Assembly (NCBI GenBank): GCA_017551025.1
Contig: JAFZNG010000031.1
Coordinates: forward strand, 1-50,410
From: Paludibacteraceae bacterium
GTDB lineage: Bacteria > Bacteroidota > Bacteroidia > Bacteroidales > Paludibacteraceae
Direction: 5' to 3'
Length of the DNA stretch: 50,410 nucleotides
The position numbers and the translations under genes were made by a program. Below the pieces are notes generated by a model that did no database searches, was not told the DNA's origin, and saw only the letters and a list, made by a program, of their open reading frames with translations. This document shows positions 3,014 through 42,378 of the stretch, in pieces. Numbering within the stretch: the stretch's first letter is position 1; every line of letters starts with the position of its first letter.

Positions 3014-4546
3014 ATGAATCAACCGGATTATATATTCGAAACCAGTTGGGAGGTATGCAACCGCGTAGGCGGAATCTATGCCGTCCTCTCCACGCGTGCT
3101 GCGTCGATGCAACGCGAGCACCCCGACCGTGTGTTCTTCTTCGGTCCCGACTTCGGCGACCATAGCGATTTGTACTTTCAAGAAGACAAGAGTCTTCTGA
3201 AAGAATACAAAATTAAAAATGAAAAATTAAAAATTCCTGTTCCGATTCGTATAGGTCGCTGGCAGATACCCGGGAAGCCGATCGCTATCCTTTTGAAGGC
3301 GGACGCTATGTGGGAGCGCAAGAACCAGATCTATGCCTGGGCATGGGAACAGGCCGGCGTGAAGAGTCATGCCGCCTATGGCGACTATGATGAGTCGTGC
3401 ATCTTCGGCTATGCCTGCGGTATGGTCATGGAGTCGCTCTACGAGTGGCTAATGGCGAATGGCGAAGGGCGAAAGGTCTGCATGCATGCTAACGAGTGGC
3501 AGACGGCCTTCACCATCTTCTACATGCGCGAGCATTGTCCGGAGGTAGGTACGCTATTCACCACCCACGCCACGGGTATCGGACGTTCGATTGCCGGTAA
3601 CGGTAAGCCCCTCTACGACTATTTCGAGGGTTACCATGGCGACCAGATGGCCGAAGAACTGAACATGGTCAGCAAGCACTCCGTAGAGAAACAGGCTGCC
3701 TACTGGGCCGACTGCTTTACGACGGTCAGTGAGATCACGGCCCGTGAGTGCGCCCAACTGCTGGACAAACCGGTAGATATCATCACCCCCAACGGCTTTG
3801 AGCCCGACTTCGTGCCGGCGCCCGAACAGTTTGATCGCAAACGCAGCGAAGCCCGCGAGGCCCTCCTGCGTGTGGCCGGTCAGCAACTCGGCGGTGTCGT
3901 GCCGCAGGATGCGATGCTGATCTGTATCGCCGGTCGACTGGAGATGAAGAACAAAGGTATCGACGCCTTCCTGCGTGCCATGGAGCGCCTGGGCGAGAAG
4001 ATGTACCATCGTGACGTGCGTCGCGAGGTCATCGCCTTTGTGATGATACCCTATCTGGATAAACCCGTCATGCGGTTCGGCCGCGTGAGCGTAGTCTTCG
4101 TCCCCTATTATCTGAACGGCCACGACCCGTTGTTCCAGAAGACCTATTACGACCTGCTCATCGGTATGGACGCTACGGTCTTCCCCTCGTACTACGAACC
4201 CTGGGGCTATACGCCGCTGGAGTCGGTGGCCTTCCACGTACCGACCATCACGACCGGACTGGCCGGTTTCGGTGCATGGGCAGACACGGGTGTCGTAGGT
4301 CTGGAGAAAGGTGTGGTGGTCATCCCGCGCACCGATAGCAACTTCCTCTACGTCGTGGACCAGATTGCCGAGAGCCTAATGCAGTTTATGGACTATACGC
4401 CGGCTGTCATCTCCCGTGCCCGCAAGGCGGCAGCAGCGATCGCGAAAAAAGCCGAGTGGAGCAAGTTCTTCAAGTACTACCGCAAGGCGTACGAGATCGC
4501 ACTGCGCAAGGCGGCAAAGCGAACGGAATTAAAAGTTAAAAATTAA
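3014..4546 (+). CDS. glgA: Glycogen synthase (GT3-type)
   Basis: A 510-residue glycosyltransferase that extends alpha-1,4-glucan chains from a nucleotide-sugar donor. The N-terminal FETSWEVCNRVGGIYAVL motif is the donor-binding signature of GT3 (eukaryote-like) glycogen synthases, and the TTHATGIGRS and FPSYYEPWGYTPLES segments are the acceptor and C-terminal catalytic loops. The branching enzyme glgB lies about 12 kb away in another operon. Two short repeat arrays lie in frame: residues 66-74 (KIKNEKLKI) and 147-154 (MANGEGRK). The C-terminal ELKVKN and the stop are encoded by a third array. These look like insertions relative to the rest of the protein, which otherwise appears intact. Confidence 0.93.
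   Translation: MNQPDYIFETSWEVCNRVGGIYAVLSTRAASMQREHPDRVFFFGPDFGDHSDLYFQEDKSLLKEYKIKNEKLKIPVPIRIGRWQIPGKPIAILLKADAMWERKNQIYAWAWEQAGVKSHAAYGDYDESCIFGYACGMVMESLYEWLMANGEGRKVCMHANEWQTAFTIFYMREHCPEVGTLFTTHATGIGRSIAGNGKPLYDYFEGYHGDQMAEELNMVSKHSVEKQAAYWADCFTTVSEITARECAQLLDKPVDIITPNGFEPDFVPAPEQFDRKRSEAREALLRVAGQQLGGVVPQDAMLICIAGRLEMKNKGIDAFLRAMERLGEKMYHRDVRREVIAFVMIPYLDKPVMRFGRVSVVFVPYYLNGHDPLFQKTYYDLLIGMDATVFPSYYEPWGYTPLESVAFHVPTITTGLAGFGAWADTGVVGLEKGVVVIPRTDSNFLYVVDQIAESLMQFMDYTPAVISRARKAAAAIAKKAEWSKFFKYYRKAYEIALRKAAKRTELKVKN
3209..3235. repeat. In-frame heptamer array inside glgA
   Basis: About four AAAATTA-type heptamers lie inside the glgA frame, encoding KIKNEKLKI. Copy 2 reads AAAATGA rather than AAAATTA. 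Without that T-to-G change (position 3221), TAA would fall in the glgA frame. The same variant occurs in lpxB. Confidence 0.85.
3451..3475. repeat. Second in-frame heptamer array inside glgA
   Basis: AATGGCG is repeated twice, followed by AAGGGCG and a partial copy, encoding MANGEGRK at residues 147-154. The unit is GC-richer than the TTTTTAA family but has the same 7-bp period. Confidence 0.65.
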
Positions 4547-4561
4547 AAATTACGAATTACC
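4527..4561. repeat. Heptamer array spanning the glgA stop codon
   Basis: Five 7-bp units of the AATTAAA type run from inside the glgA 3' end into the gap before the dipeptidase gene. The array supplies the last residues of GlgA and its TAA stop at 4544-4546. Confidence 0.85.
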
Positions 4562-4567
4562 ATAGCC

Positions 4568-6202: not shown

Positions 6203-6203
6203 T

Positions 6204-6821: not shown

Positions 6822-6828
6822 ATCGGAG

Positions 6829-7452: not shown

Positions 7453-7453
7453 T

Positions 7454-8206: not shown

Positions 8207-8226
8207 AATTGTACGTTTTCGGGGTG

Positions 8227-8234: not shown

Positions 8235-8242
8235 CGAAAAAT

Positions 8243-8277: not shown

Positions 8278-8304
8278 AAAAAAACGCAAAAAAACGCACT
8301 AAAA

Positions 8305-15229: not shown

Positions 15230-16012
15230 TTATTGTTTTACGATGCTACGGATCGCTTCTTCGTCACCGTAACTGCGATGGAGGATACGTCCTTGGCGGT
15301 CGATGAGGATGGTGGTAGGAATACCGTCTACGCCGTAGGCGTCATAGGCGGGATTCCCCTTACCGCTACCGGTGGTGATATGTCGCCAGCCGAGTTGCTT
15401 CTCATCGATCATACGGCGCCAGGCGTCTTTGTCCTCGTCGCAATTGACGCCGAGTATCTCCAGTCGTCCTTCGGGAAGACTCTCGTAGAGGGCTTTTAGT
15501 TCGGGCAGTACGCGGCGGCACGGTCCGCACCAAGTAGCCCAGAAGTCGAGCAACACATAGTCGGTACGTCCTACGAGATCGCTCAGTTTAAGTGCGGTCC
15601 CGTCGGGCTGCATACCGCTGATATCTACATATTGCTGACCTGCTGAGGTGGCACGTTCCACCTCATATTTGGCTACCAGTTGCTGCATGATCTCGCCCTG
15701 CAGCACGCTTTGGGGCAGTACCTTCAGAATGCTGTCTTTCTGCTCGGGCGTGAACTGACGAAAACTCATCAGCAGCAACGAGTCGGTATACTCGTCCTTG
15801 GGGTGGCTGACGATCAGTCGAAACAGTTCCTCACCATACTTGGCCTCGATGCTGTCCATCGCGGCTTGGTCACCTTGCTCTGAGGCTTGGGCGTACTGCT
15901 CGGATAATACCGAATCCATCTCCAGAAATTCTTCCCGGAGCGACGCTTGCTTCCCGCATCCCACCAACGCTACGAGCGCAGCAAGGATATAGATTGCTTT
16001 AAATCCTTTCAA
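15230..16012 (-). CDS. TlpA/ResA-like thiol-disulfide lipoprotein
   Basis: A 260-residue periplasmic thioredoxin-like lipoprotein. The signal peptide ends LVGC (Cys19), residues ~22-125 form a helical DUF4369-like or spacer region, and a TlpA-type thioredoxin domain follows with WCGPC at 161-165 and the cis-Pro segment GIPTTILID. It probably reduces or oxidises thiols in the periplasm. No ATG is available: a TGA lies two codons upstream of the TTG at 16012-16010, and the signal peptide follows that TTG directly. The TTG lies in a heptamer array. Confidence 0.88.
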   Translation of the reverse strand: MKGFKAIYILAALVALVGCGKQASLREEFLEMDSVLSEQYAQASEQGDQAAMDSIEAKYGEELFRLIVSHPKDEYTDSLLLMSFRQFTPEQKDSILKVLPQSVLQGEIMQQLVAKYEVERATSAGQQYVDISGMQPDGTALKLSDLVGRTDYVLLDFWATWCGPCRRVLPELKALYESLPEGRLEILGVNCDEDKDAWRRMIDEKQLGWRHITTGSGKGNPAYDAYGVDGIPTTILIDRQGRILHRSYGDEEAIRSIVKQ

Positions 16013-16040
16013 TTTTCAATTTTGATTTTTGAATTTTTAA
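16006..16040. repeat. Heptamer array between glgB and the TlpA-like gene
   Basis: Five 7-bp units of the TTTTCAA/TTTTTAA type fill the glgB-tlpA gap. On the minus strand the last unit reads TTGAAAG, whose TTG is the apparent start codon of the TlpA-like gene. The TGA stop of glgB lies just outside, at 16046-16048. Confidence 0.85.
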
Positions 16041-16045
16041 TTTCT

Positions 16046-18670: not shown

Positions 18671-20686
18671 ATGAAACGATTTTTTATTACTTTCTTAGCA
18701 ATGAGTTCTATTCTTACAGCTTTGGCTGCACCCCGAACTATCGGTATCCGCACCGAGAATCTCGATCGCTCCGTAGCGCCCCAGGAGGATTTTTATCAGT
18801 ATGCCTGCGGCGGATGGATGCGGCTTAATCCCCTGACGCCCGAATACAGCCGTTTCGGTTCGTTCGACCAACTGGCGCTCCGCAACCTCGAACAGGTCAA
18901 CGGCCTGATTCAAGGCTTGGCCGAACACAAGCATGCTGCCGGTTCGGTAGAGCAGAAGATAGGCGACCTCTATAACCTGTCTATGGATACAGCGCGTCGC
19001 AACCGTGAGGGGGATGCACCGCTGCGCCGTTCGCTCGGTGGAATCGCCACAATATCTTCGCGTGCCCAACTCTCGCAGCGTCTCGGCGAGGCAATGGAGT
19101 ACGGCCTGTGGGCGATGTATGTCGATGCCGATGCAATGAACTCAAGTCTGAACATCTTGAACGAAGCCCAGGCAGGTTTTGCGCTCGGCGAGAAAGAGTA
19201 TTACCTCGATCAGGATGAGCACACCCAGATGATTCGTCGCGAATACCTGAAATATATCGAGAAGATGTTCGAAACGTTCGGTTTCACCGAGCCCGCCACC
19301 CGTGCACAGACTGTGCTGCGCATGGAGACGCGTCTCGCTACCGCCGCACTGAATAATGTCGAGCTGCGCGACCCGCAGACCAACTATAACAAGATGACTA
19401 TCGACTCGCTCCAGCAACTCGTGCCCGAGATCGACTGGCAGGTCTATTTCCGCGCTATGGGTATTCAGCCGACCTGTATCTCCGTAGGCCAGGTACGTCA
19501 TCTCCAGGAGGCCGGTCATATGCTGGCGGACGAACCGCTCGAAGACCTAAAGACCCTGTTCGCTTGGCAGGTCATGGACGGTGCTGCCGCATACCTGAGC
19601 GACGAGATTTATATGCTGAGCTTCAATTTCTACGGTCGCATTCTCAGTGGTCGTGAAGAACCCTCGCCGCTCTGGAAGCGCGCCGTGAATATCGTGAACG
19701 GTACCTTGGGCGAGGCTGTTGGCCAGATGTACGTGAAGCAGTACTTCCCCGAGGAGAACAAAGCCCGTATGCTGGCGCTGGTGAAGAACCTGCAACGTGC
19801 CCTGGGTGAGCGTATCAGCAATCTCACGTGGATGTCCGATGAAACCAAGCAAAAAGCACTCGAGAAACTCTCCGCCTTTACCATCAAAATCGGCTATCCC
19901 GACAAGTGGCGCGACTATACCGATTTGCGTATCGATGCGCGCGATACGTATTATATGAATCTTATGCGTGCCGCCAAGTTTGAGCAGGATTATAGCCTCA
20001 GCTTCCTGGAGAAACCGGTAGACAAACAGAAATGGTACATGACGCCGCAGACGGTTAATGCCTACTATAACCCTTCGAGCAACGAGATCTGTTTCCCGGC
20101 CGGTATCCTGCAGTACCCCTTCTTCGACATGTCGGCAGATGATGCGTTCAACTACGGTGCGATTGGTGTGGTTATCGGTCATGAGATGACCCACGGTTTT
20201 GACGACCAGGGATGCCAGTTCGATAAGGATGGAAATATGCTCAACTGGTGGACCGACGAAGACAAACAGCGCTTCGATGAGCGCACCAAGGTGATGGCAG
20301 ATTTCTTCGATGCCATCGAGGTGGCACCGGGTGTGCATGCCAATGGTGCATTTACGCTTGGCGAGAATATCGCCGACCATGGTGGCCTGCAAGTCAGCTA
20401 CCAGGCTTTCCTCAATAACGAGGCGGCTAAGGCAAAGAAAGATCGCCTCAAAACCAAGGGAGGCTTCACGCCGGCACAGCGTTTCTTCCTGGCTTATGCG
20501 AATGTATGGGCAGGTAATATTCGTCCTGAGGAGATACTCCAGCGCACCAAGTCCGACCCGCACTCCCTGGGTCGTTGGCGTGTCAACGGTGCCCTGCCGC
20601 ACATCAATGCCTGGTACGATGCCTTTGGTATCACGCCTGCCTCACCGATGTATGTTGCTCCTCAGAAACGCGTATCCATTTGGTAA
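18671..20686 (+). CDS. M13-family zinc endopeptidase (PepO/neprilysin-like)
   Basis: A 671-residue secreted metallopeptidase. A signal peptide (residues 1-19) is followed by the helical PepO N-domain (QEDFYQYACGGWM) and the catalytic domain, with H504-E-M-T-H508 in VIGHEMTHGFDDQG, Glu565 in ENIADHGGLQVSY as third zinc ligand, and the family's C-terminal tryptophan (SIW). It is predicted to degrade peptides in the periplasm or at the surface. Transcribed from its own strong promoter; the Dabb gene follows after a heptamer array. Confidence 0.96.
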   Translation: MKRFFITFLAMSSILTALAAPRTIGIRTENLDRSVAPQEDFYQYACGGWMRLNPLTPEYSRFGSFDQLALRNLEQVNGLIQGLAEHKHAAGSVEQKIGDLYNLSMDTARRNREGDAPLRRSLGGIATISSRAQLSQRLGEAMEYGLWAMYVDADAMNSSLNILNEAQAGFALGEKEYYLDQDEHTQMIRREYLKYIEKMFETFGFTEPATRAQTVLRMETRLATAALNNVELRDPQTNYNKMTIDSLQQLVPEIDWQVYFRAMGIQPTCISVGQVRHLQEAGHMLADEPLEDLKTLFAWQVMDGAAAYLSDEIYMLSFNFYGRILSGREEPSPLWKRAVNIVNGTLGEAVGQMYVKQYFPEENKARMLALVKNLQRALGERISNLTWMSDETKQKALEKLSAFTIKIGYPDKWRDYTDLRIDARDTYYMNLMRAAKFEQDYSLSFLEKPVDKQKWYMTPQTVNAYYNPSSNEICFPAGILQYPFFDMSADDAFNYGAIGVVIGHEMTHGFDDQGCQFDKDGNMLNWWTDEDKQRFDERTKVMADFFDAIEVAPGVHANGAFTLGENIADHGGLQVSYQAFLNNEAAKAKKDRLKTKGGFTPAQRFFLAYANVWAGNIRPEEILQRTKSDPHSLGRWRVNGALPHINAWYDAFGITPASPMYVAPQKRVSIW

Positions 20687-20693
20687 TTTTGCA

Positions 20694-20714
20694 TTTTTAA
20701 TTTTTAATTTTTAA
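20694..20714. repeat. Three perfect TTTTTAA heptamers
   Basis: The gap between the M13 peptidase and Dabb genes holds three perfect TTTTTAA copies. This is the cleanest example of the commonest unit in the window. Confidence 0.95.
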
Positions 20715-20722
20715 TTCCTCAA

Positions 20723-21346: not shown

Positions 21347-22615
21347 ATGGCAAACAAGCATAAGATAATCAACGACCCGGTTTTCGGATTCATGCAGCTG
21401 GAAAGCGACCTGGAGTACGACGTGCTGCAGCATCCCTACGTGCAGCGACTGGGGCGTATTCGCCAACTGGGTCTGAGCAACCTGGTCTACCCGGGTGCGA
21501 TGCATAGCCGCTTCAGCCATAGCCTGGGTGCAATGCATCTCATGAGCGAAGCGGTGCGCAGCCTGCGCCAGAAAGGCGTCGCTATTTCCAATTCCGAGGC
21601 TACGGGGGCGAAGATCGCTATCCTGCTCCATGATGTAGGCCACGGACCTTTCTCCCACGTACTGGAACATACCCTCGTAGATAATATCACCCACGAGGAG
21701 ATCTCGCTCATGATGATGGAGCGTATCAATGCCGATCTGAAGAGCCGACTGGAGCAGACCATGTGGCAACGCGGTCCGCTGGACGAGGCGATCGGCATCT
21801 TCCGCGACGAATACCCGCGCCATTTTTTCCATCAGTTGATCTCCAGCCAACTGGACGTCGACCGTATGGATTACCTCTGCCGCGATTCGTTCTTCACCGG
21901 TGTACAAGAGGGCCGTATCGCCAGCGAGCGACTACTCAAGATGCTCAACGTGGTGGACGACCGTCTGGTTGTGGAGCACAAGGGTATCTACTCGGTTGAG
22001 AAGTTCCTGGTTGCCCGCCGACTGATGTACTGGCAGGTCTATCTGCATAAGACCAGCGTAGCTGCCGAGCAGCACCTTATCATGATCCTCTCGCGAGCCA
22101 AAGAACTGGCGCGTAGCGGCAAGGAACTGTTCTGCTCGCCCGCACTCCGCTATTTCCTCTATACCCAGCGTGCCGCCGAAGACTTCTCGCCTAATAGCGA
22201 AGCCCTCGACCAGTACGCCCTGCTCGACGATACCGACGTGCTATCGGCTATCAAGACCTGGATGTCTTGTTCCGACCGTATCCTGAGCATGCTCTGCCGT
22301 TCGTTCACCAGCCGCCGGCTCTTCCGTGGACAACTGATCGATGCACCGCTCTCCGAAGAACGTAAGCAGGCGCTGCGCCGACAGTATGCCAAGACGCTGG
22401 ATGTCACCGAGGACGAGGCCGAACGATACCTGTTCGTGGAGCATATCTCCACTTCCAATACCTATAGCGAAAAGGACGATTCCATCGACATTCTCTTCAA
22501 CGACGGCACGGTGCGCAACATCGCCGAGGCCAGCGAGATACTCGACCTGGAAGCCCTGACCCGCAAACCTATCAAACGCTACTTATTCCAATACCGCCTG
22601 GAAAACAATTTTTAA
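21347..22615 (+). CDS. HD-domain phosphohydrolase (dNTPase-like)
   Basis: A 422-residue HD-superfamily protein. His53 in MHSRFSHSLGAMHL, the HD pair His95-Asp96 in ILLHDVGHGPFSHVLEH and a later SQLDVDRMDYLCRDS segment match the SAMHD1/dGTPase-like group. The substrate may be a dNTP, but that is an inference. The gene is commonly found just upstream of lpxD in Bacteroidales. Its TAA stop (22613-22615) is supplied by the heptamer array that follows. Confidence 0.92.
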   Translation: MANKHKIINDPVFGFMQLESDLEYDVLQHPYVQRLGRIRQLGLSNLVYPGAMHSRFSHSLGAMHLMSEAVRSLRQKGVAISNSEATGAKIAILLHDVGHGPFSHVLEHTLVDNITHEEISLMMMERINADLKSRLEQTMWQRGPLDEAIGIFRDEYPRHFFHQLISSQLDVDRMDYLCRDSFFTGVQEGRIASERLLKMLNVVDDRLVVEHKGIYSVEKFLVARRLMYWQVYLHKTSVAAEQHLIMILSRAKELARSGKELFCSPALRYFLYTQRAAEDFSPNSEALDQYALLDDTDVLSAIKTWMSCSDRILSMLCRSFTSRRLFRGQLIDAPLSEERKQALRRQYAKTLDVTEDEAERYLFVEHISTSNTYSEKDDSIDILFNDGTVRNIAEASEILDLEALTRKPIKRYLFQYRLENNF

Positions 22616-22647
22616 TTTTCAATTTTGAATTTTTAATTTTTAATTTC
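22606..22647. repeat. Six-unit heptamer array before lpxD
   Basis: Six 7-bp units of the (T/C/G)AATTTT type cover the end of the HD gene and the gap to lpxD. One unit provides the HD stop codon. The array ends 4 bp before the lpxD ATG at 22652. Confidence 0.92.
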
Positions 22648-22651: not shown

Positions 22652-23686
22652 ATGCAATTTAGTGCACAACAAATAGCTGCCGTCTTAGGTGGCAAGTTGA
22701 TAGGCAATGCCGAGGCTATGGTCTCCGACGTAGCGTCTATCGAGCATGCCGAGGCGCATCATCTCTCGTATATCACCGACGAGAAATACCTCCATTGTCT
22801 CGAGACAACCCACGCCGGCGTGGTACTCGTTACGCAATCGCTTCTTTCGACTTTCGACTTTGAGCATAGCGGTCTTTCGACTACTATCATAATGGTTCCC
22901 AACGCTCGCGGCGCCATGGCACAACTGTTGCAGATGGTATCCGAGGCGATGTTTCCCGCCAAGCGCGGCGTGGAGCAACCTTGCTTTATCAGCGAGGGCG
23001 TGGAGCTGCCGGAGGATGTATATGTCGGTGCGTTTGCGTATATCGGCAAGAATGTGCGTCTGGGCAAGGGTGTACAGATCTACCCCCAGGCTTACGTGGG
23101 CGATAATGTCACGATCGGCGAGGGTACGATACTCTATTCCGGCGTGAAGGTATACGCCAATTGCCGCGTCGGTCGCCAGTGTATCCTGCATAGCGGTGTC
23201 GTCATCGGTGCGGACGGTTTCGGTTTCGAACCCGATGCCAAGGGCGTCAACCAGAAAGTGCCTCAGATCGGTGCTGTCATCATCGAAGACGATGTAGAGA
23301 TAGGTGCCAACACGACGGTCGATCGCGCCATGATGGGTAATACCGTTGTGCACAAGAATGTCAAGATCGACAACCTCGTCCAGGTGGCGCATAATGTCGA
23401 GGTGGGTGAGTCTACGTTTATGTGTGCCCAATCGGGCGTAGCCGGTAGCACCAAGATCGGCCACCACTGTATCCTGGCAGGTCAGGTAGGCGTAGCCGGG
23501 CATATCGAGATCACGGATCAATGTATCTTCGGTGCACAGGCCGGCGTAGCCGGTTCGGTGCGTAAGCCGGGCATGTATCAGGGTTCACCGGCTATCGATG
23601 CCGGCAATTGGCGCCGCTCGTCGGTGGGCTTCAAGCAACTGCCCGACATCCTGCGTCGCCTGCAAACCCTAGAAAAAGAGAAGTAA
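22652..23686 (+). CDS. lpxD: UDP-3-O-(3-hydroxyacyl)glucosamine N-acyltransferase
   Basis: LpxD adds the second hydroxyacyl chain in lipid A synthesis. The 344-residue product has the N-terminal uridine-binding domain (SAQQIAAVLGGKLIG), a left-handed beta-helix of hexapeptide repeats, and the catalytic-His segment VQVAHNVEVG, followed by a C-terminal helix. In the N-terminal domain, residues 66-77 are encoded by TTCGACT-type repeats and look like a local expansion. The gene is followed 1 bp later by lpxC. Confidence 0.96.
   Translation: MQFSAQQIAAVLGGKLIGNAEAMVSDVASIEHAEAHHLSYITDEKYLHCLETTHAGVVLVTQSLLSTFDFEHSGLSTTIIMVPNARGAMAQLLQMVSEAMFPAKRGVEQPCFISEGVELPEDVYVGAFAYIGKNVRLGKGVQIYPQAYVGDNVTIGEGTILYSGVKVYANCRVGRQCILHSGVVIGADGFGFEPDAKGVNQKVPQIGAVIIEDDVEIGANTTVDRAMMGNTVVHKNVKIDNLVQVAHNVEVGESTFMCAQSGVAGSTKIGHHCILAGQVGVAGHIEITDQCIFGAQAGVAGSVRKPGMYQGSPAIDAGNWRRSSVGFKQLPDILRRLQTLEKEK
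22845..22881. repeat. In-frame TTTCGAC repeats inside lpxD
   Basis: TTTCGAC occurs twice in tandem (22845-22858), followed by a diverged heptamer and a third copy at 22875-22881 that is shifted by 2 bp. They encode the STFDFEHSGLST segment at residues 66-77. Confidence 0.6.
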
Positions 23687-23687: not shown

Positions 23688-24590
23688 ATGAAGCAACACA
23701 CTATACAAGAGTCCTTCACGCTCAGCAGCGTAGGACTCCACACAGGCCTGATGATCAACGCTACCTTCCGCCCCGCGGAGGAGAATACGGGTATCCGCCT
23801 GTGTCGTATCGACCTGCCTAAGAAACCTTGCTACCAAGCTTTGGCGGATTATGTCAGCGGTACCGAACGCGGCACCGTACTGGAGCACGGTAAGTGGAAA
23901 ATCTCCACCGTCGAGCATGCCCTCTCTGCGCTCTATGCCTTGGGCGTGGACAACTGTCTGATCGAGGTGGATGGTCCGGAAATGCCGATTTTGGACGGTA
24001 GTGCCAAGTATTTCGTGCGTGAGATACAGCGTGTCGGACTCCGTGAACAAGAGGCCGAACAGCAGGTTCTCGTGGTGAGCGAACCGATCGAATATGTCTC
24101 CGAGCACGGTCATAGAATGCGTATCGAGCCCTGCGACCACTATGAGGTGGATGTGACGATCGCCTTCCGTTCAGTGCTGCTGCGCGAACAGCATGCTACC
24201 CTTACCGACCTGAACGACTATCCCCGCGAGGTGGCTGCAGCACGTACTTTCTGCTTCGTACGCGAGATAGAACCGCTGCTGCGCGTCGGACTGATCAAGG
24301 GTGGTGACCTGAAGAACGCACTCGTCATCTACGAGACCGAGATGAGTCAGGAAGGTATGGATTATTTCTGCGACAAACTGGGACAACCGCACATGGATGC
24401 TACCAAACTCGGTTACCTCTCGCCGCTGAACTACCAAAACGAACCGGCACGTCATAAATTGCTCGATGTCATCGGCGATTTATCCCTGCTCGGCATGCGT
24501 ATCCAGGGACGTATCGTGGCCTTCAAGCCCGGTCATACCTTCAATACACAATGCGTACGCAAACTGCGCAACCAGATAATGTCGGAATAA
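23688..24590 (+). CDS. lpxC: UDP-3-O-acyl-N-acetylglucosamine deacetylase, single-domain
   Basis: LpxC is the committed, zinc-dependent step of lipid A synthesis. Zinc ligands are His77 (in STVEHALSAL), His256 and Asp260 (in HKLLD), and His283 (PGHTFNT) is the expected catalytic His. The 300-residue product ends right after the LpxC domain. In most characterised Bacteroidetes LpxC is fused to FabZ (about 460 residues), and here no FabZ part follows. The stop TAA begins a heptamer array. Confidence 0.96.
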   Translation: MKQHTIQESFTLSSVGLHTGLMINATFRPAEENTGIRLCRIDLPKKPCYQALADYVSGTERGTVLEHGKWKISTVEHALSALYALGVDNCLIEVDGPEMPILDGSAKYFVREIQRVGLREQEAEQQVLVVSEPIEYVSEHGHRMRIEPCDHYEVDVTIAFRSVLLREQHATLTDLNDYPREVAAARTFCFVREIEPLLRVGLIKGGDLKNALVIYETEMSQEGMDYFCDKLGQPHMDATKLGYLSPLNYQNEPARHKLLDVIGDLSLLGMRIQGRIVAFKPGHTFNTQCVRKLRNQIMSE

Positions 24591-24649
24591 TTTTTAATTT
24601 TGAAATAATCGTTCCCTTTATGGGATAAGAATTTTTAATTTTTAATTTC
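24588..24649. repeat. Two heptamer arrays between lpxC and lpxA
   Basis: TAATTTT units begin at the lpxC stop codon (24588-24601), and three more units occupy 24629-24649 just before the lpxA ATG. The 27 bp between them (from GAAATAATCG to GGGATAA) carry no recognisable gene. The gap lies where a FabZ domain would be encoded in related species. Confidence 0.85.
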
Positions 24650-24650
24650 A

Positions 24651-25448: not shown

Positions 25449-25492
25449 TAATAGGCTATTAATAGGTGATTAATACGCGATTAATAGGAAAT
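25449..25492. repeat. Four 11-bp tandem units before glnS
   Basis: Four TAATAGGNNAT-type 11-mers fill most of the lpxA-glnS gap. Each unit holds TAATAG. As 11 is not a multiple of 3, stops appear in all three forward frames. Confidence 0.85.
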
Positions 25493-27240: not shown

Positions 27241-27242
27241 TC

Positions 27243-27274
27243 GTCATGACGTCATTACGTCATTACGTCATTAC
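27243..27274. repeat. Four 8-bp tandem units (GTCATTAC)
   Basis: GTCATGAC plus three perfect GTCATTAC units fill the gap between glnS and the next gene. The unit contains a GTCAT/ATGAC-type dyad. Confidence 0.85.
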
Positions 27275-27280
27275 GACAGA

Positions 27281-31098: not shown

Positions 31099-33402
31099 AT
31101 GGACTGGCTGGATGGATTAAATGATTCCCAACGTGCGGCGGTTGAGTACTGCGACGGACCCGAACTGGTCATAGCCGGTGCGGGCTCGGGTAAGACGCGT
31201 GTGCTAACCTATAAGATCGCCTACCTGCTCGAGCAGGGTATTCCCGCTAACCGTATTCTCGCGCTTACCTTTACCAATAAGGCCGCCCGCGAGATGAAGG
31301 AGCGTATCCAACGACTGGTGAACGCCGAAGATGCGCGCTACCTTTGGATGGGCACGTTCCATAGTGTGTGTGGCCGTTTGTTGCGATCGAAGGCTGAAAA
31401 GTTGGGTTATACCAAAGATTTTACGATTTATGATACGACAGATAGTAAATCGTTAATCAAATCCATATGCAAGGAGTTGGAGTTGGAGGATAAAGTATAT
31501 AAGCCAAGTCTCGTTTTAAGCCGTATATCTAGTCTCAAAAATAGTTTTGTAACGCCTGCCGATTATGCGGCGGATACTAGTCTACAGCGCGAGGATAAAT
31601 ACGCACGCTTGTATAATTTATACGATATATATAGATTGTACCAAATACGCATGAAGTCAAATAATGCTATGGACTTTGACGACATGCTATTGGAAACCTT
31701 AAAACTGATGCGTCAATTCCCTGAGATTCGAGAAGAATATCAACAGCTATTCTTATATCTATTGGTTGATGAGTATCAGGACACGAATAAGGTACAGTAC
31801 CTATTAGTTAAAGAATTGGCAGCTCCTCAGAATAATATTTGTGTAGTGGGCGACGATGCGCAGAGTATTTATTCTTTCAGAGGAGCTGATATAGGGAATA
31901 TCCTTAATTTCCAGAAACAATTTTCTAATGCTAAGTTGTTCAAGTTGGAACGTAACTATCGTTCCACAAAGAATATTGTAAATGCTAGCAACTCATTAAT
32001 CGTTAAAAATAAAGAGCAGATATTTAAAGATGTTTATTCTGAGAAGGAAGATGGCCCGCAATTATGTTTAGAAGCATATAATACAGATAAATTAGAAGCA
32101 AAAGGTGTAGTAGATCAAATAATCAGGAGTCACTCGAGGTCGCAAATTCCGTACAATAATATAGCTATCCTCTATAGGACGAATGTTCAGTCAAGATTAT
32201 TTGAGGATGAGTTGAGAAAACAAAATATACCATACCGAGTATATGGCAATGTGTCGTTCTATCAGCGTAAGGAAATCAAGGATATAGTTAGTTATTTGCG
32301 AATAGCTGTCAATCCTTTAGATAATGAAGCCTTGTTACGTGCAATTAGCATTTATAGTGGCATAGGCGCTACCACTATGAAAAAGGTTGTTTTGTGCGCA
32401 ACAGAGCATAAGGAGTCATACCTTAAAATTATGACGAATCCGGCAGAATTTGGTATGACCGGTGATGCAATGATTAAGAAATTGCAAAGTTTTGCTCAGA
32501 AAATAGAAAACCTCTCAGAAAATAGTAGCAATTTGTCGGCATCCGAATTTGTATCCAAAGCATTGGAGGTTGCAGGTATTTCGCTTAATATAACGGATCC
32601 GTTTGATACCGATGAAATGGATAGAATACAAAATCTGCAATCTTTTGTACAACAGATTAAAGATTTTGAAAATGAACATAAAACAGAGGACAGCGAAATC
32701 ATTCCGATTCACGAGTTTTTATATGAAGTAAGTCTTTTGACGGATCAAGATGATAGGCAGAATGAATCTACGGATAGCGTTACTCTAATGACTGTTCATA
32801 GCGCAAAAGGGTTAGAGTTTCCTGTGGTTTTCATTACGGGACTAGAGGATGGCATATTTCCATCGCGACATAGTATGGGTGAATGGCACGACCAGAGAGA
32901 ACTTGAAGAAGAAAGAAGGTTATTTTATGTTGCAATAACGCGAGCAATGGAACGTTGTTATTTGTGTTATGCGAAACAAAGATTTGTAAATGGAGAAATT
33001 AAATTACAGAAAGAATCAATATTCCTTAATGACATTGATGAGCAATATGTAAAATCCTCTAATCTAAAGTATCCAGAAACATATAAAACGCATTGGTCCT
33101 ATACCGCCCCGTCTAGAGCAGCGTTCTCTTCCGCGCATCCCGCACCACCCGCCATGCCCTCGATAAAACCGGACAAATTGACCAAAGTGGCGGATAATAA
33201 ATCTCAAATCTCAAATGTCAAATCTCAAATCGATGCCCCGTGGGCAGCGGGCACCCGTATCCGCCATGCCGTATTCGGTGAGGGAACGGTGCAACGCGTT
33301 TACGAGGATCAGATGACGGGCAATGAGAAGATAGAAATCCTCTTTGATACCAAGGGGCAGAAGACGCTGCTGCTTACCTACGCGAAGCTGGAGCGTATCT
33401 GA
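31099..33402 (+). CDS. UvrD/PcrA-family DNA helicase, mosaic composition
   Basis: A 767-residue superfamily 1A helicase. GAGSGKT (27-33), TFTNKAAREMKER, VDEYQDTNKVQ, GDDAQSIYSFRGAD, LERNYRSTKNI, MTVHSAKGLEFPVVF and YVAITRAM are the canonical motifs in order, so the protein is intact. It would unwind DNA in repair and replication restart. Base use changes sharply: roughly 31100-31385 and 33110-33402 are GC-rich like the neighbours, while ~31385-33105 is AT-rich with many tta, ata, aat and aga codons. A heptamer array encodes residues ~701-712 (KSQISNVKSQID) in the linker before the C-terminal domain. The stop abuts that of the convergent chromate transporter. Confidence 0.94.
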   Translation: MDWLDGLNDSQRAAVEYCDGPELVIAGAGSGKTRVLTYKIAYLLEQGIPANRILALTFTNKAAREMKERIQRLVNAEDARYLWMGTFHSVCGRLLRSKAEKLGYTKDFTIYDTTDSKSLIKSICKELELEDKVYKPSLVLSRISSLKNSFVTPADYAADTSLQREDKYARLYNLYDIYRLYQIRMKSNNAMDFDDMLLETLKLMRQFPEIREEYQQLFLYLLVDEYQDTNKVQYLLVKELAAPQNNICVVGDDAQSIYSFRGADIGNILNFQKQFSNAKLFKLERNYRSTKNIVNASNSLIVKNKEQIFKDVYSEKEDGPQLCLEAYNTDKLEAKGVVDQIIRSHSRSQIPYNNIAILYRTNVQSRLFEDELRKQNIPYRVYGNVSFYQRKEIKDIVSYLRIAVNPLDNEALLRAISIYSGIGATTMKKVVLCATEHKESYLKIMTNPAEFGMTGDAMIKKLQSFAQKIENLSENSSNLSASEFVSKALEVAGISLNITDPFDTDEMDRIQNLQSFVQQIKDFENEHKTEDSEIIPIHEFLYEVSLLTDQDDRQNESTDSVTLMTVHSAKGLEFPVVFITGLEDGIFPSRHSMGEWHDQRELEEERRLFYVAITRAMERCYLCYAKQRFVNGEIKLQKESIFLNDIDEQYVKSSNLKYPETYKTHWSYTAPSRAAFSSAHPAPPAMPSIKPDKLTKVADNKSQISNVKSQIDAPWAAGTRIRHAVFGEGTVQRVYEDQMTGNEKIEILFDTKGQKTLLLTYAKLERI
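33199..33233. repeat. Five in-frame heptamers inside the helicase gene
   Basis: Five 7-bp units (AAATCTC three times, AAATGTC, AAATCGA) encode the KSQISNVKSQID segment between the helicase core and the C-terminal domain. None of the units places a stop in frame. Confidence 0.85.
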
Positions 33403-33966
33403 TTACAGGTAGATAAAATAGCCGGCAAGGCCTGCCAAGAGAATTAGAAGAATCGGGTGACTAAGTAGATTGGTCACCTTGTTTTTTTTGAGTTCCGGCA
33501 GGATAGTCAGTACGGCTACGGCGGCGAAGATGATCCAACTCGTCGGATCGATAAATGTGGTCGGTTTCATCAGCATCAGCGCGGCGGAGGCGATCAGTCC
33601 GATCACCGCAAATCGCAGCATACGGAGTGTCTCGGTGAAATACGGGTTGCCTTGGAAACGTCGGCTGAGCCAGAAATAGGCCTTGCAGACGCTGAGCATG
33701 ATGACGAGACTCGGCAGCACCAGGGCAAAGGTGGTCAGTACGCTTCCCCAGAACCCGCCTATGGTATAGCCGACATACGTGGCGCAGTTGATGCCGATCG
33801 GTCCGGGCGTCACCTGACTGATGGCCATGATATCTACGATCTCCTGTGGCGTCAACCATCCGTGAGAGACGACCTCCATCTGTATGAGTGAGAAGATCGC
33901 CATGCCCCCTCCGAAACCGAAGAGACCAATCTTAAAGAACGATATGAAGAGCTCGAGATAAATCAA
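33403..33966 (-). CDS. chrA: Chromate transporter family protein, half 2
   Basis: A 187-residue single-domain CHR protein with about six membrane helices. FFKIGLFGFGGGMAIFSLIQ and the TPGPIGINCATYVGY segment are CHR signatures. It pairs with the adjacent 175-residue half, as in bacteria where ChrA is split into two short subunits. The substrate may be chromate, but the natural ion is uncertain. No ATG is available upstream in frame after a TAA. The apparent start is TTG at 33966-33964, at the edge of a heptamer array. Confidence 0.88.
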   Translation of the reverse strand: MIYLELFISFFKIGLFGFGGGMAIFSLIQMEVVSHGWLTPQEIVDIMAISQVTPGPIGINCATYVGYTIGGFWGSVLTTFALVLPSLVIMLSVCKAYFWLSRRFQGNPYFTETLRMLRFAVIGLIASAALMLMKPTTFIDPTSWIIFAAVAVLTILPELKKNKVTNLLSHPILLILLAGLAGYFIYL

Positions 33967-33991
33967 TTCGTAATTTTTAATTTTTAATTCT
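33964..33991. repeat. Heptamer array between the two chromate-transporter genes
   Basis: Four 7-bp units (CAATTCG, two TAATTTT, TAATTCT) fill the 10-bp gap and extend into both genes. On the minus strand the array supplies the end of the first half (IKN and stop TAA at 33979-33977) and the TTG start of the second half. Confidence 0.88.
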
Positions 33992-34504
33992 CACAACGAT
34001 AATTGTCGCGATTATCGTAGTGACGATGATCCATACGGGATTGACGTGCCCAAGCCAGATGAGCAACGCGGCAGCGACGGGGATAAGGGCTGTCAGCCAG
34101 GATATCTTAGCCGCTTTAGCCAGTTTGAAGAGCGGAGCGGCGATGAGGGCTACTACGGCAGGTCGGATACCCTTGAAGGCTGCTTCTACGGCGGGCAGGT
34201 CTTTCCAGTCGCGGAAGACCATGGCGATCATGAGTATGATCAGAAACGACGGCAGCACCGCACCCAGTACCGCACCCGCTACACCTTTCCATCCGCCTAC
34301 GCGCCAACCGATAAAGATGGCAGAGTTGACGGCTATCAGTCCCGGAGCGGCTTGTGCCAGGGCGATCATGTTCAGGAATTCCTCCTCATCGATCCATCCG
34401 CGGCGGTCTACTACCTCACGTTGGATCAAGGGCAACATAGCATACCCTCCACCCAGGGTGAAGGTCCCGATCTTGAGATATGTCCAGAAGAGTTGGAAGA
34501 ACAA
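33977..34504 (-). CDS. chrA: Chromate transporter family protein, half 1
   Basis: A 175-residue CHR-family half. YLKIGTFTLGGGYAMLPLIQREVVDRRGW is the N-terminal CHR motif, and AQAAPGLIAVNSAIFIGWRVGG is the second. About five membrane helices are predicted. The only plausible start is TTG at 34504-34502, flush with a heptamer array. The last residues (RIKN) and stop are encoded by the next array. It follows udk and precedes its partner half. Confidence 0.88.
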   Translation of the reverse strand: MFFQLFWTYLKIGTFTLGGGYAMLPLIQREVVDRRGWIDEEEFLNMIALAQAAPGLIAVNSAIFIGWRVGGWKGVAGAVLGAVLPSFLIILMIAMVFRDWKDLPAVEAAFKGIRPAVVALIAAPLFKLAKAAKISWLTALIPVAAALLIWLGHVNPVWIIVTTIIATIIVVRIKN

Positions 34505-34532
34505 TTTTTAATTCTTAATTTTTAATTTTTAA
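34505..34532. repeat. Heptamer array between udk and the first chromate-transporter gene
   Basis: Four units (three TTTTTAA and one TTCTTAA) exactly fill the junction. Read on the minus strand, the array provides the udk stop codon (34531-34529) at one end and abuts the TTG start of chrA half 1 at the other. Confidence 0.93.
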
Positions 34533-35146
34533 TTGTTCTCTCTAAGTTGTTGCTTAACGAACTTGGCGAGCATATTGATGGCGGCGTTGTTGTGACCACC
34601 TTGCGGCACGATCACGTCTGCGAAGCGCTTACAGGGTTCGATAAACTGTTCGTGCATCGGTTTGAGCACACGCTGATAACGCTCGATGACGGCTTCGGCG
34701 GTGCGCCCACGCTCGATGACGTCGCGCTTCATGACGCGAATCAGTCGGTCGTCGGCGTCGGCATCTACGAAAATCTTGAGGTCCATCTGCTGCCGCATCT
34801 TAGGTTCACGCAGCGCCATGATACCTTCTACTACGATGACCTCGCGGGGCTCGATATGTATCGTCTCCTCGGAGCGGGTACAGGTGATGTAGGAGTAGAT
34901 AGGTTGCTCGATCGGTTTACCCTCTTTGAGCAAGGCGATATGTTTGCTCAGCAGGGCCCAGTCGAACGCATCGGGGTGGTCGAAGTTGATGTTCTGACGT
35001 TCCTCTACGGGCACGTTGCTACTGTCTTTGTAATACGAGTCTTGAGGAATAACGACTACTTCGCCTTTTGGCAAACGCTCGATGAGCTTCTTGACTACCG
35101 TTGTTTTACCCGAGCCGGTACCGCCCGCAATGCCGATGATAAACAT
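34529..35146 (-). CDS. udk: Uridine kinase
   Basis: A 205-residue uridine/cytidine kinase of pyrimidine salvage. GGTGSGKT (residues 8-15) is the P-loop, and NFDHPDAFDW and RRD-type RDVIERGRT segments are typical. Length is normal. The product ends ENN, with the stop coming from the adjoining heptamer array. It is transcribed from its own promoter, divergent to rfbA. Confidence 0.96.
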   Translation of the reverse strand: MFIIGIAGGTGSGKTTVVKKLIERLPKGEVVVIPQDSYYKDSSNVPVEERQNINFDHPDAFDWALLSKHIALLKEGKPIEQPIYSYITCTRSEETIHIEPREVIVVEGIMALREPKMRQQMDLKIFVDADADDRLIRVMKRDVIERGRTAEAVIERYQRVLKPMHEQFIEPCKRFADVIVPQGGHNNAAINMLAKFVKQQLRENN

Positions 35147-35262: not shown

Positions 35263-35307
35263 GATTATTCGGATTAATCCGATTATTCCGATTATTCCGA
35301 TACAATC
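35263..35307. repeat. Five 9-bp tandem units (GATTATTCC type)
   Basis: Five 9-mers of GATTATTCC type fill the middle of the udk-rfbA divergent gap. The second unit makes a GGATTAATCC palindrome with its neighbour. Confidence 0.8.
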
Positions 35308-35314
35308 GGAGACC

Positions 35315-35342
35315 ACACTCTACACCCTACACTCTACACTAT
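35315..35342. repeat. Four 7-bp tandem units (ACACTCT type)
   Basis: ACACTCT, ACACCCT, ACACTCT and ACACTAT directly follow the 9-bp array in the udk-rfbA gap. Confidence 0.8.
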
Positions 35343-40399: not shown

Positions 40400-40966
40400 A
40401 TGAAACGAATACTACTCTTTTTGGCCGCCGGTGCATGCCTCGTACTCACGAGTTGCAACCAGAACAGCTATTCCCAGCAACGCAAGGCCGAGGATAAACT
40501 GATCGAGAACTTTATCGCGCGCCAGCATATCAACGTGCTGACCGAAGAACCCGCGGACGACTACCAGTGGGCGGAAAACGACTACCTGCTCGTACCCGGT
40601 TACGACAACCTCTACTTCCACCTGCGTCAACGCGGCGACTCGCTCTATATCGAGAACGGCGATACGACACGTCTCAAAGAGGTGGAGGCACTGGAGACCA
40701 TCGTGATGCGTTACCGTAAGTTCGGCCTCACCGAGAATGCCGATACGCTCAGCTATTGGACGACGCTCGACCAGGCCTATCCTACGGAGTTCCAGTATAT
40801 GAACACCAGCGATTGCGAGGCTACGGGATGGCATGTCGCCGTCAAGTATATGCGCTATACCAACGCTGAGTGCCAAATCATATGCCCCAGCAAAATGGGT
40901 TTCACCACCGATCAGAACTCGGTGACGCCCTACTGCTATATTATGAAAATGAAAATCAAACGATAA
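40400..40966 (+). CDS. Lipoprotein of unknown function (DUF4827-like)
   Basis: A 188-residue predicted lipoprotein (lipobox LTSC, Cys19). It starts immediately after the FKBP-like gene and ends 1 bp before glmM. The ENFIARQHINVL helix, DNLYFHLRQRGDSLYIENGDT and YCYIMKMKIKR parts recall the DUF4827 family found next to FKBP genes in Bacteroidales; I regard this as likely but not proven. It may work with the FKBP-like neighbour. Confidence 0.72.
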   Translation: MKRILLFLAAGACLVLTSCNQNSYSQQRKAEDKLIENFIARQHINVLTEEPADDYQWAENDYLLVPGYDNLYFHLRQRGDSLYIENGDTTRLKEVEALETIVMRYRKFGLTENADTLSYWTTLDQAYPTEFQYMNTSDCEATGWHVAVKYMRYTNAECQIICPSKMGFTTDQNSVTPYCYIMKMKIKR

Positions 40967-40967
40967 T

Positions 40968-42341
40968 ATGAGTCTTGTGAAGAGTATTTCCGGTATCCGC
41001 GGAACGATAGGCGGACCGGTAGGAGAGGGATTGAATCCCGTGGATATCGTTCGTTTTACCGCTGCCTACGCCATCCAGCGTCGTGCCGCCATGCCCGACA
41101 ACCGCAAGATCGTCGTGGGCCGTGACGCCCGTCTGAGCGGCGAGATGGTAGACAGTATCGTGTGTGGTACGCTCATCGGTATGGGGTACGACGTGGTCAA
41201 TATCGGTCTGGCTACTACGCCCACTACCGAACTGGCCGTAGTGCACGAGCAGGCTGCCGGTGGTATTATCCTCACCGCCAGCCATAACCCCAAGCAGTGG
41301 AACGCCCTGAAGCTGCTCAACGAGCACGGCGAGTTCCTCAACGATGCCGAGGGCAAAGGTGTACTCAGTATCGCCGAACGCGAGGACTTCCGCTTCGCCG
41401 AAGTAGATGACCTGGGTCAGATCAGCCATAAGGACTACCTGCCGCAACATGTCAAGGACGTGCTCAGCCTCAAACTCGTGGACAAAGCGGCTATCGAGCA
41501 AAAGAACTTCACCGTAGCAATCGATTGCGTCAACTCGGTAGGCGGTCTGGCTATCCCGGGCGTGCTGCGGGCACTGGGCGTAAAAAACATTATCGAACTC
41601 AGCTGCACGCCCAACGGACGCTTCCCGCATAATCCTGAACCGCTGCCGCAACACCTCACGGAGATCAGCGACCTGCTGCGCTCGGGGAAGGCAGACGTAG
41701 GTTTTGTGGTAGATCCGGATGTAGACCGACTGGCGATCATCTGCGAGAACGGCGATATGTTCGGCGAGGAATATACCCTGGTGAGCGTAGCCGATTACGT
41801 ACTTACCCACACGCCGGGTAATACGGTCAGCAATATGTCCTCCACGCGTGCATTGAGCGACGTGACGCGTGCCCACGGCGGCCAGTACAGCGCCAGCGCC
41901 GTAGGTGAGGTGAACGTCGTAGCAGAGATGAAGCGCACCCAGGCCGTTATCGGTGGCGAAGGCAACGGTGGCGTGATCTATCCCGAGTGCCATTACGGAC
42001 GCGACGCCCTGGTAGGTATCGCACTCTTCCTGAGTCATCTGGCCCACAAGGGCATGAAGGTCAGCGAGTTGCGCCGCACCTATCCTGAGTACTGCATCAG
42101 CAAGAACCGTATCGACCTCACGCCCGACACCGACGTAGATGCTATCCTTGTGCGTGTGAAAGAATTGTATAAGAATGAGCGTGTGAATGATAAGGACGGC
42201 GTGAAGATTGATTTTGCGGACGGTTGGGTACATCTGCGTAAGTCGAATACCGAACCTATCATACGCGTCTATTCCGAGGCCGCCACGATGGCGGAGGCCA
42301 ATGCCCTCGCACAGAAAGTAATCGACGTAGTAAACAGCTGA
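40968..42341 (+). CDS. glmM: Phosphoglucosamine mutase
   Basis: A 457-residue phosphohexomutase. SGIRGTIGGPVG is the N-terminal phosphate-binding segment, the catalytic phosphoserine is Ser105 in LTASHNPKQWNALK, and the metal-binding loop is DPDVDRL (Asp249, Asp251, Asp253). Family logic favours conversion of glucosamine-6-phosphate to glucosamine-1-phosphate for peptidoglycan and lipid A, but phosphomannomutase activity cannot be excluded by sight. surE follows after a heptamer array. Confidence 0.9.
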   Translation: MSLVKSISGIRGTIGGPVGEGLNPVDIVRFTAAYAIQRRAAMPDNRKIVVGRDARLSGEMVDSIVCGTLIGMGYDVVNIGLATTPTTELAVVHEQAAGGIILTASHNPKQWNALKLLNEHGEFLNDAEGKGVLSIAEREDFRFAEVDDLGQISHKDYLPQHVKDVLSLKLVDKAAIEQKNFTVAIDCVNSVGGLAIPGVLRALGVKNIIELSCTPNGRFPHNPEPLPQHLTEISDLLRSGKADVGFVVDPDVDRLAIICENGDMFGEEYTLVSVADYVLTHTPGNTVSNMSSTRALSDVTRAHGGQYSASAVGEVNVVAEMKRTQAVIGGEGNGGVIYPECHYGRDALVGIALFLSHLAHKGMKVSELRRTYPEYCISKNRIDLTPDTDVDAILVRVKELYKNERVNDKDGVKIDFADGWVHLRKSNTEPIIRVYSEAATMAEANALAQKVIDVVNS

Positions 42342-42343
42342 AA

Positions 42344-42378
42344 ACTGAATACTGAACACTGAATACTGGACACTGAAT
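42344..42378. repeat. Five heptamers (ACTGAAT) reaching into the surE start codon
   Basis: Five ACTGAAT-type units fill the glmM-surE gap. The last unit overlaps the surE ATG at 42377, so the array provides the A and T of the start codon. The glmM TGA stop immediately precedes the array. Confidence 0.9.

Follow-up and report, generated by a model that had tools for sequence, protein, structure and literature searches.

Introduction

Cyanobacteria are known for heptameric tandem repeats at many sites, the short tandemly repeated repetitive (STRR) sequences. One paper (papers are cited here by PubMed Central (PMC) number) mentions the STRR heptamer case of Calothrix, along with dispersed heptamer arrays of GGGAATC in Xanthomonas and of GGGGA(C/T)T in Nostoc (PMC4692102). 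Arrays of the heptamer TAACTGA have been described in Beggiatoaceae, in some Cyanobacteria and in five Bacteroidetes, with two sets in Paludibacter propionicigenes (MacGregor 2015, PMC4679880). A survey of short tandem repeats found that bacteria are on average not enriched in them, with Bacteroidota among the high-density exceptions (PMC12699852). I consider here a stretch of 50,410 nucleotides from Paludibacteraceae bacterium (contig JAFZNG010000031.1 of assembly GCA_017551025.1), the whole of which I will call the window, and the short tandem arrays, mostly of 7-bp units, that lie between its genes and within them. An earlier note on this DNA knew of no described counterpart in Bacteroidales, which is not quite right in light of MacGregor's five Bacteroidetes; beyond that paper, searches for heptamer, spacer and mobile-repeat precedents yielded no description of such dispersed cassettes from this order.

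Intercistronic gaps and insertions in protein loops are usually treated as drift. I lean towards a different account of those considered here, that the arrays are lineage-specific dispersed tandem-repeat cassettes (about 25–60 bp, mostly with 7-bp units), which were born by slippage, copied between sites and then filtered. The evidence consists of the internal structure of the arrays, their sorting between gaps and genes, and their comparison with orthologous sites in related genomes.

A Dispersed Family with Common Internal Variants

In this species the AATTTTT family (equivalently TTTTTAA, or AAAAATT on the opposite strand) occupies about a hundred or more sites, with common internal variants and distinct ends. 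The exact sequence (TTTTTAA)3 has 45 matches in the genome. It is present in 10 of 150 genomes of the family and in 11 of 395 genomes of the phylum (this genome included in both counts), and among 12 congeners one has a single match. The ten other Bacteroidota genomes that carry it have one or two loci each among the matches listed. The shorter 18-mer AATTTTTAATTTTTAATT has 152 matches in this genome. For eight congeners, of which seven were selected as carriers of a 25-mer described below, the counts are 6, 1, 3, 42, 17, 18, 10 and 34.

I read 103 distinct sites of this one heptamer family, which is mostly intergenic (90 sites in gaps, 11 in open reading frames (ORFs) and 2 at edges). Two pure units were required by the pattern that selected the sites, and information is therefore to be had from the flanking units alone. 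Directly to the left of the pure run stand AATTCGT (25 sites), AATTTTG (18), AATTCTT (11) and CATTTTT (9), and directly to its right AATTTCT (11), AATTCCT (10), AATTTTG (9) and AATTTCC (7), but AATTCGT at none. When all unit positions are considered, 29 units ending in CGT stand to the left of the run and a single one, in stretch L003, to its right. The ends, left and right, are thus unlike each other and also non-complementary, and no terminal inverted repeats were seen by inspection.

The 25-mer that includes the AATTCGT unit, AATTCGTAATTTTTAATTTTTAATT, occurs in 24 of 101 genomes of the genus, this one included, and its copies number 27 here, 15 in G611 and 10 each in G626 and G599. None of the 101 genomes contains this sequence in reversed form. 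Reversal is a valid control for this 25-mer and for the 24-mer encoding KNEKLKI that is considered below, and an invalid one for TTTTTAA repeats, which when reversed are themselves such repeats. A longer element, a composite of an 11-mer and a 7-mer array extending over 106 bp, is found with 94% identity at L005 4892-4997 and L020 5667-5772. The arrays therefore lack the independence of sequence expected of simple repeats, since haplotypes and ends are common to many sites and species.

As to its makeup, the composite consists of the 11-bp array ACCTACTAATC and a TGGTGTA heptamer array, and it lies in two long divergent gaps. Its 11-mer is present also in the relative L022 (20778-20829).

Arrays in the Genome at Large

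The window, with a GC content of 53%, corresponds to contig C26 in a draft genome of 1.94 Mb. Its nearest named relatives, judged by LpxD, are rumen or gut Bacteroidales, filed as Paludibacteraceae or as plain Bacteroidales. Arrays were counted in a sample of 450,410 bases, made up of the window and 20 stretches of 20 kb (L001-L020), the latter on contigs known from the search for (TTTTTAA)3 and at positions picked regardless of its matches. The scan sought approximate periodicity with a score of at least 14, and ten dinucleotide block shuffles served as the null. It detected 75 arrays of period 7, 5 of period 14, and 7, 8 and 3 of periods 8, 9 and 11, respectively, as against none of any of these periods in the ten shuffles. 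The excess of period 7 over shuffled sequence is the heptamer bias of long simple sequence repeats, and the distribution of periods departs from chance in the way that the earlier note had anticipated. Extrapolation from the sample gives some 340 heptamer arrays for the whole genome. For the window, the estimate of about twenty arrays was a fair one: Tandem Repeats Finder (TRF) gives 27 rows, overlapping rows counted, and my own scan 16 arrays.

The 80 arrays of period 7 or 14 are divided among co-directional gaps (36), ORFs (35), other gaps (8) and an edge (1). These classes are subject to some error, since the simple script that called the genes got a number of starts wrong, as well as the miaA region of the window. 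The supposition that most arrays lie between genes of an operon is right for the TTTTTAA family (84 of 103 sites) and wrong for the arrays as a whole. The same division applies to the supposed six-frame stop cassette. A clean TTTTTAA array does place stops in all six frames, but among real arrays this is true of 14 of the 31 of the AAAAATT class and 2 of the 49 others. The stop-cassette property is limited to one family. What the earlier note missed is that the arrays look like dispersed copies and are frequent within genes.

Arrays within Genes and a Frame-Open Variant

One cassette exists in two versions, and reading frame separates those in genes from those in gaps. Among arrays of the AAAAATT class 7 of 31 lie in ORFs, whereas arrays with other units do so in 28 of 48 cases (p = 0.0024). 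Three of the seven are at the end of the ORF and four are internal, and all four internal arrays have the same single change, T to G, which makes AAAATGA out of AAAATTA in the very unit whose TAA would otherwise be in frame, so that they read KNEKLKI. A 24-mer representing this frame-open variant has ten sites in the genome, nine of them in ORFs, always in the one frame that gives KNEKLKI, and one intergenic. Six of the nine host genes could be named: those for glycogen synthase, LpxB, a GH3 glycosidase, a PcrB-deaminase protein, QueA and an APH-RapZ protein. Two of these are in the window. In the glycogen synthase ORF (3014-4546), the array AAAATTA AAAATGA AAAATTA at 3209-3235 (+ strand) encodes KIKNEKLKI, and in the LpxB ORF (43357-44475) the variant at 43931-43960 (− strand) encodes IKNEKLKI. 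The site at L005 18604-18636 is likewise in frame.

At several sites, in protein loops as well as at co-directional junctions, the arrays are new DNA relative to related genomes. The glycogen synthase array adds exactly seven residues with respect to the nearest orthologues without an insert (L103, L104 and L106), and the same increment is seen in the GH3 glycosidase as compared to its nearest orthologue without an insert (L408, 81% identical) and, with a TACACCA array, in MutS as compared to its nearest orthologues without one. Other species bear different inserts in the same protein loops. The mismatch-repair protein of this organism (MutS; L015 8087-10717, − strand) is thus itself the bearer of a heptamer insertion of seven residues. 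A loop of LpxD contains a degenerate cassette of the CTTTCGA type, LSTFDFEHSGLST (22853-22878, + strand), and this DNA differs by one substitution in 26 from the insert in the glycogen synthase gene of another species (L105 1702-1727).

Operon Junctions

The 103 TTTTTAA sites are found in co-directional gaps (84), convergent gaps (3), divergent gaps (3), called ORFs (11, some of which may be start miscalls) and at edges (2). The proportion of intergenic sites in co-directional gaps, 84 of 90, exceeds expectation whether this is based on base pairs (p = 6e-8) or on number of gaps (p = 0.01). At 59 of the 84 co-directional junctions the stop codon of the upstream gene falls at least partly within the array, and at 31 of these entirely so; another 5 arrays begin 0-2 nt past the stop. 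In most of the 59, the step of the array relative to the stop is −2 nt (26 cases), −9 (15) or −16 (11), as would be expected where a 7-bp period supplies a TAA in each frame. That arrays end translation, as had been suggested, is borne out by this placement. The start codon of the downstream gene is between −6 and +12 nt from the array at 64 of the 84 junctions.

At these 84 junctions the array is T-rich in the sense strand 37 times and A-rich 47 times. The lack of a clear strand preference argues against a single sequence-specific RNA signal and suggests that the exact RNA sequence is not needed. The sample has 212 close co-directional junctions, of which 41 have an array and 171 do not. The median predicted fold energy at the start is −2.2 with an array and −3.7 without (p = 0.003), and the AT content of the 20 nt preceding the start is 77% versus 67%. 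Bacteroidetes are a phylum without Shine-Dalgarno signals. Initiation in these bacteria is described as tuned by mRNA structure and upstream A, not by Shine-Dalgarno pairing (PMC6847099), and AT-rich leaders predicted to be weakly folded may be welcome to such a system.

Orthologous Junctions in Related Genomes

Orthologous gaps that lack arrays are often near zero in length, which agrees with the proposal that arrays space cistrons. The gap between the HD-domain gene and lpxD is no more than 2 nt, or the genes overlap, in 17 of 30 relatives, and five have arrays detected by the scan, with units other than the one found here. The gap between lpxC and lpxA is no more than 2 nt in 12 of 28 relatives, one of these being a match artefact. 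The genes for the M13 peptidase and the Dabb protein, separated by an array in this genome, overlap in L042. Between lpxA and gltX, the gaps of L027, L029 and L040 contain 11-bp arrays of different sequence.

A junction between Rnf-Nqr subunit genes (rnfE-rnfA by position, the family assigned by Pfam) was compared in 30 genomes, including this one. The genes are separated by a few nucleotides or by longer spacers, and the spacers comprise at least five kinds of array, those other than AATTTTT judged by eye. AATTTTT arrays are found in this genome and in G582, G611, G635, G561 and G600; the remaining 24 have a few nucleotides or other sequence. The junction in G630 is occupied by a 14-mer array, though its second protein is 96% identical, and that in G582 by an array identical to the one here, in a locus that is 83% identical over 1639 bp.

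One site held in common differs in its number of units. At the secE-nusG junction (genes identified by Pfam), G611 shares the array with this genome and has one unit more. The earlier note had proposed that copy number be compared in orthologous gaps, and in this case such a change is seen; elsewhere the gaps often have different units or are near zero. The close species G630 shares 23 junctions with this genome, of which 13 have an array here and 9 of those 13 also have one in G630. No pair has the same unit; by my own reading, two pairs come close, that at L232 with one substitution (on the opposite strand) and that at L014 with two. The lengths of the shared gaps are correlated (rho = 0.61, p = 0.002).

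Taxonomic Spread and Unit Vocabulary

The density of arrays of period 7 and 14 is 17.8 per 100 kb in this genome, 17.3 in G630, 7.3 in 20 stretches from other species of the genus, 8.2 in near relatives represented by the LpxD region and 0.9 in distant Bacteroidota. The figure for other genera of the family, 6.6, is biased upward: six of the 20 stretches (L181-L186) come from genomes, in part from the very contigs, with matches to (TTTTTAA)3, as do the stretches from G013, G069, G100 and G115. Near relatives also prefer period 11 (13 arrays in 400 kb and 26 in 643 kb). The claim that the period and not the sequence is the common trait stands insofar as near relatives favor periods 7 and 11 with many different units, and falls short in that units are partly held in common. 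Of 27 unit classes in this genome, 16 recur in near relatives, as compared to a null mean of 3.2 (reached by 0 of 500 shuffles), while 3 of the 27 recur in other genera and phylum members (null 2.4).

A universal vocabulary imposed by the polymerase was considered as well and is unsupported, given the 3 classes against 2.4 expected for this genome and other genera and a borderline result for near relatives and others (8 against 4.3). G013, from another genus of the family (L184, L287-L296), has 33.2 heptamer arrays per 100 kb in 115 kb, on contigs picked in part for their matches, and its units, such as AATTAGC and AACCACT, differ from those found here.

Other Arrays of the Window

Arrays were confirmed at all eight places in the window that the earlier note had named. 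Three of them show the haplotypes of the AATTTTT family described above: AATTTTG CATTTTT AATTTTT AATTTTT AATT between the M13 peptidase and Dabb genes (20685-20716), AATTCGT AATTTTT AATTTTT AATT between two chromate-transporter genes (33965-33992; noted earlier as 33964-33991 and missed by TRF), and AATTTTT AATTCTT AATTTTT AATTTTT AATT between a chromate-transporter gene and a uridine-kinase-like gene (34503-34534). An apparent repeat flanking the first of these merely reflects the overlap of the two genes in L042. Further members of the family lie between the HD-domain gene and lpxD (22607-22646; relatives overlap, abut or have other arrays), between thioredoxin-like and branching-enzyme-like genes on the − strand (16007-16043), and between the glycogen synthase and peptidase C69 genes (4527-4560, + strand, AAAAATT class), where the array overlaps the upstream stop. 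Glycogen synthase ends in KRTELKVKN here and in KR or SR in L107 and L109, and other orthologues vary. A second array in the same ORF has the unit GGCGAAT (3446-3473, + strand) and lies in a loop whose length varies in orthologues.

Repeats are also present between lpxC and lpxA (24588-24650), as had been noted for 24588-24649, but their actual form is that of a small hairpin-like stretch with a short AATTTTT array on either side. This stretch, ATAATCGTTCCC..GGGATAAG, lies directly to the left of an AATTTTT array both here and at L212, and the two together possibly constitute a larger composite cassette. LpxC (23688-24590) ends at 300 residues, and in L048, L052 and L053 the sequence ahead of LpxA continues into an apparent FabZ tail; loss of a fusion of LpxC and FabZ is possible.

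The remaining arrays have other units. An 11-bp array, TAATAGGCGAT, separates lpxA from gltX (25449-25486), and an 8-bp array, CGTCATTA, separates gltX from an HSDR_N gene (27242-27275). The latter belongs to a family with members at L009 15292 and 18007, L018 18465 and L020 9273; the palindrome CGTCATGACG, at the left end of the array in the window, is found at one end in three of the five members seen (that of the window, L009 18007 and L020). The UvrD ORF contains an AAATCTC array (33199-33231, + strand), in frame as KSQISNVKSQI, in a linker of variable length among orthologues. A divergent gap contains the 9-bp array GATTATTCC and an ACACTCT heptamer array (35263-35340), and a CTGAATA/CTGAACA array (42338-42378) bridges the stop of a phosphoglucomutase-like gene and the start of surE.

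A further dispersed composite consists of TTTTGTC or CTTTCGA heptamers around the core CTTTGAGCGAAGCGGTC. A search permitting up to 5 substitutions in 26 found it, in this and other species, at L256 1300-1325, L003 12449 and L015 12327 and in L021, L022, L170, L172 and L396. The core contains GCGAAGC, which I take to be a very stable DNA mini-hairpin.

Origin of the Arrays

If the arrays are indeed dispersed cassettes, they might come about as follows. Units would be born and lengthened through slipped copying, with a 7-nt step that matches the heptamer bias already known in bacteria. Once complete, a cassette would be copied elsewhere through template switching at ectopic sites or through gene conversion. 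The copying would be guided by very short homology, such as the stop codon TAA, AATT or other arrays, could take either orientation and would leave no target-site duplication. Filtering would follow. Stop-rich cassettes would survive mainly at junctions, terminating the upstream gene in any entering frame and giving the downstream start an AT-rich, weakly folded leader, and frame-open variants would survive in genes, where three 7-bp units (21 nt) make seven residues. The benefit to translation probably explains why cassettes are retained, not how they arise. A stronger claim is possible, which I put forward tentatively: that a hitherto undescribed copying process without transposon footprint spreads heptamer cassettes of about 30 bp with fixed ends, so that species rewrite their operon spacers and some of their protein loops, each with its own vocabulary. 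If this is true, intercistronic spacers evolve by replacement of whole cassettes, and housekeeping enzymes gain inserts of seven residues in single steps.

It is quite unlikely, in my estimation, that each array arose independently by slippage in place, from a chance seed and with a 7-nt step favored by the polymerase, the likeness amongst arrays being coincidence or composition. The dominance of period 7 here and its frequency in near relatives with many units would be understandable on such grounds, as would the different units at orthologous junctions of different species and the difference of one unit at secE-nusG, and both the heptamer excess and the idea of a polymerase footprint have been published (Mrazek 2007, cited in PMC4679880 and PMC4692102). 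Coincidence would need to extend, however, to the doubly substituted AATTCGT in the same position at a quarter of the sites and to the spread of its 25-mer through the genus, to the identical T-to-G change in all four internal gene arrays of the AAAAATT class, to the 106-bp composite at two places and to a vocabulary common with near relatives far above chance. Structured multi-unit variants with unlike ends are not the product of independent slippage. This sharing of haplotypes already speaks against slippage as the sole cause, and the suggestion of replication slippage in the earlier note does not suffice as the whole story. A conventional miniature mobile element (a miniature inverted-repeat transposable element (MITE), a REP doublet forming a hairpin (REPIN) or an element like IS200/605) mobilized by a transposase in trans would account for copies that are dispersed in both orientations, that have definite ends unlike each other and that insert in frame in coding sequence, all of which are seen. 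I nevertheless judge it highly improbable, for the inspected ends show no terminal inverted repeat, the flanks no target-site duplication above the null, unit number varies, and several unrelated families of units behave alike, which one transposase would not explain.

Selection might instead have kept and spread the arrays as intercistronic cassettes that provide stops in all frames and an AU-rich, unstructured leader. The crowding of intergenic TTTTTAA sites into co-directional gaps, their position over the stop and close to the next start, the weaker predicted folding and higher AT content before the start, the conservation of the rnf-junction array between this genome and G582, and the manner in which Bacteroidetes initiate translation are all in its favor. 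Against it are the lack of a clear strand preference, the unchanged A content of leaders, the other families, which rarely stop all frames and are in genes as often as in gaps, and the many junctions that manage without (171 of 212 close co-directional junctions without any array, 24 of 30 rnf junctions without an AATTTTT array). On balance this explanation is unlikely.

Several results weigh against the account I favor, that of cassettes born by slippage, copied and filtered. No duplication of target sites exceeds the null amongst exact flank repeats at the 103 sites, so insertion is inferred by comparison and not from a footprint, and the comparisons are between species, none of them catching a recent insertion. 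Neither an enzyme nor an intermediate of copying was found, no family-directed search for either having been made. The same array has been retained at some sites where the DNA is 76-83% identical, an outcome not expected from neutral turnover alone, and array presence at the junctions shared with G630 is not significantly associated (9 of 13 vs. 4 of 10, p = 0.22). Among the gaps of the unselected sample, the excess in co-directional ones (36 of 44) is not significant (p = 0.10), and the A content of leaders is 41% both with and without an array. With regard to genes, the second glycogen synthase array and that of UvrD show no clear insertion relative to orthologues, and the third glycogen synthase array lies at a variable C-terminus. 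The lengths of inserted peptides, taken over all orthologous proteins, have no clean peak at seven residues (24 cases, with 16 each at 6 and 8, 40 at 5, 35 at 10 and 22 at 18). Finally, the vocabulary has no sharp boundary, since near relatives and other genera have 8 of 71 unit classes in common (null 4.3; as many or more in 25 of 500 shuffles).

Comparison with Known Systems

The series of 30 genomes at one junction, with the gap near zero or filled by different repeat cassettes, and the cassette whose two versions differ in reading frame make testable the source of new spacer DNA in compact operons and likewise the origin of in-frame loop insertions. A warning follows as well, that repeats have a part in setting both the gap lengths and the C-termini of these genomes. 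Within the extracts consulted of the papers cited here, I did not find described polar multi-variant cassettes common to dispersed sites and species, a frame-open variant almost confined to genes, or the replacement of cassette by cassette at orthologous junctions.

The STRR sequences resemble the present arrays in being heptameric tandem repeats at many sites, and they are described in cyanobacteria. The TAACTGA repeats are similar in that they are direct repeats of a heptamer, with 169 sets in one genome, with stops in all three forward frames and mostly just upstream of starts. They differ in having one fixed unit, with related heptamers rare as repeats (PMC4679880), whereas here there are several drifting units (AATTTTT, TACACCM, AAATCTC and others) in both orientations and with structured ends. 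The GGGAATC repeats of Xanthomonas also have a single unit, G-rich and potentially quadruplex-forming (PMC4692102), as opposed to several families here, the main one AT-rich, with units replaced between species and a frame-open variant within genes. Neither the TAACTGA nor the GGGAATC class is among the 21 classes listed for the sample of this genome.

With respect to insertions in genes, the nearest likeness is to the palindromic elements of Rickettsia, in which the same dispersed sequence lies in frame in unrelated metabolic genes (PMC10969869); the frame-open variant likewise lies in frame in several unrelated genes, nine of its ten sites being in ORFs. Those elements are about 150 bp in length and palindromic; the variant is a heptamer array of 24-33 bp, 21 nt net, with no palindrome. 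The tandem repeats of Borgs are fast-evolving and occur both in gaps and, with the frame kept, in ORFs, as these arrays do, but the description is of perfect repeats, whose units within ORFs have lengths divisible by three (PMC9879509). The arrays considered here consist of imperfect 7-mers, and the frame is kept through steps of three units together with a point change.

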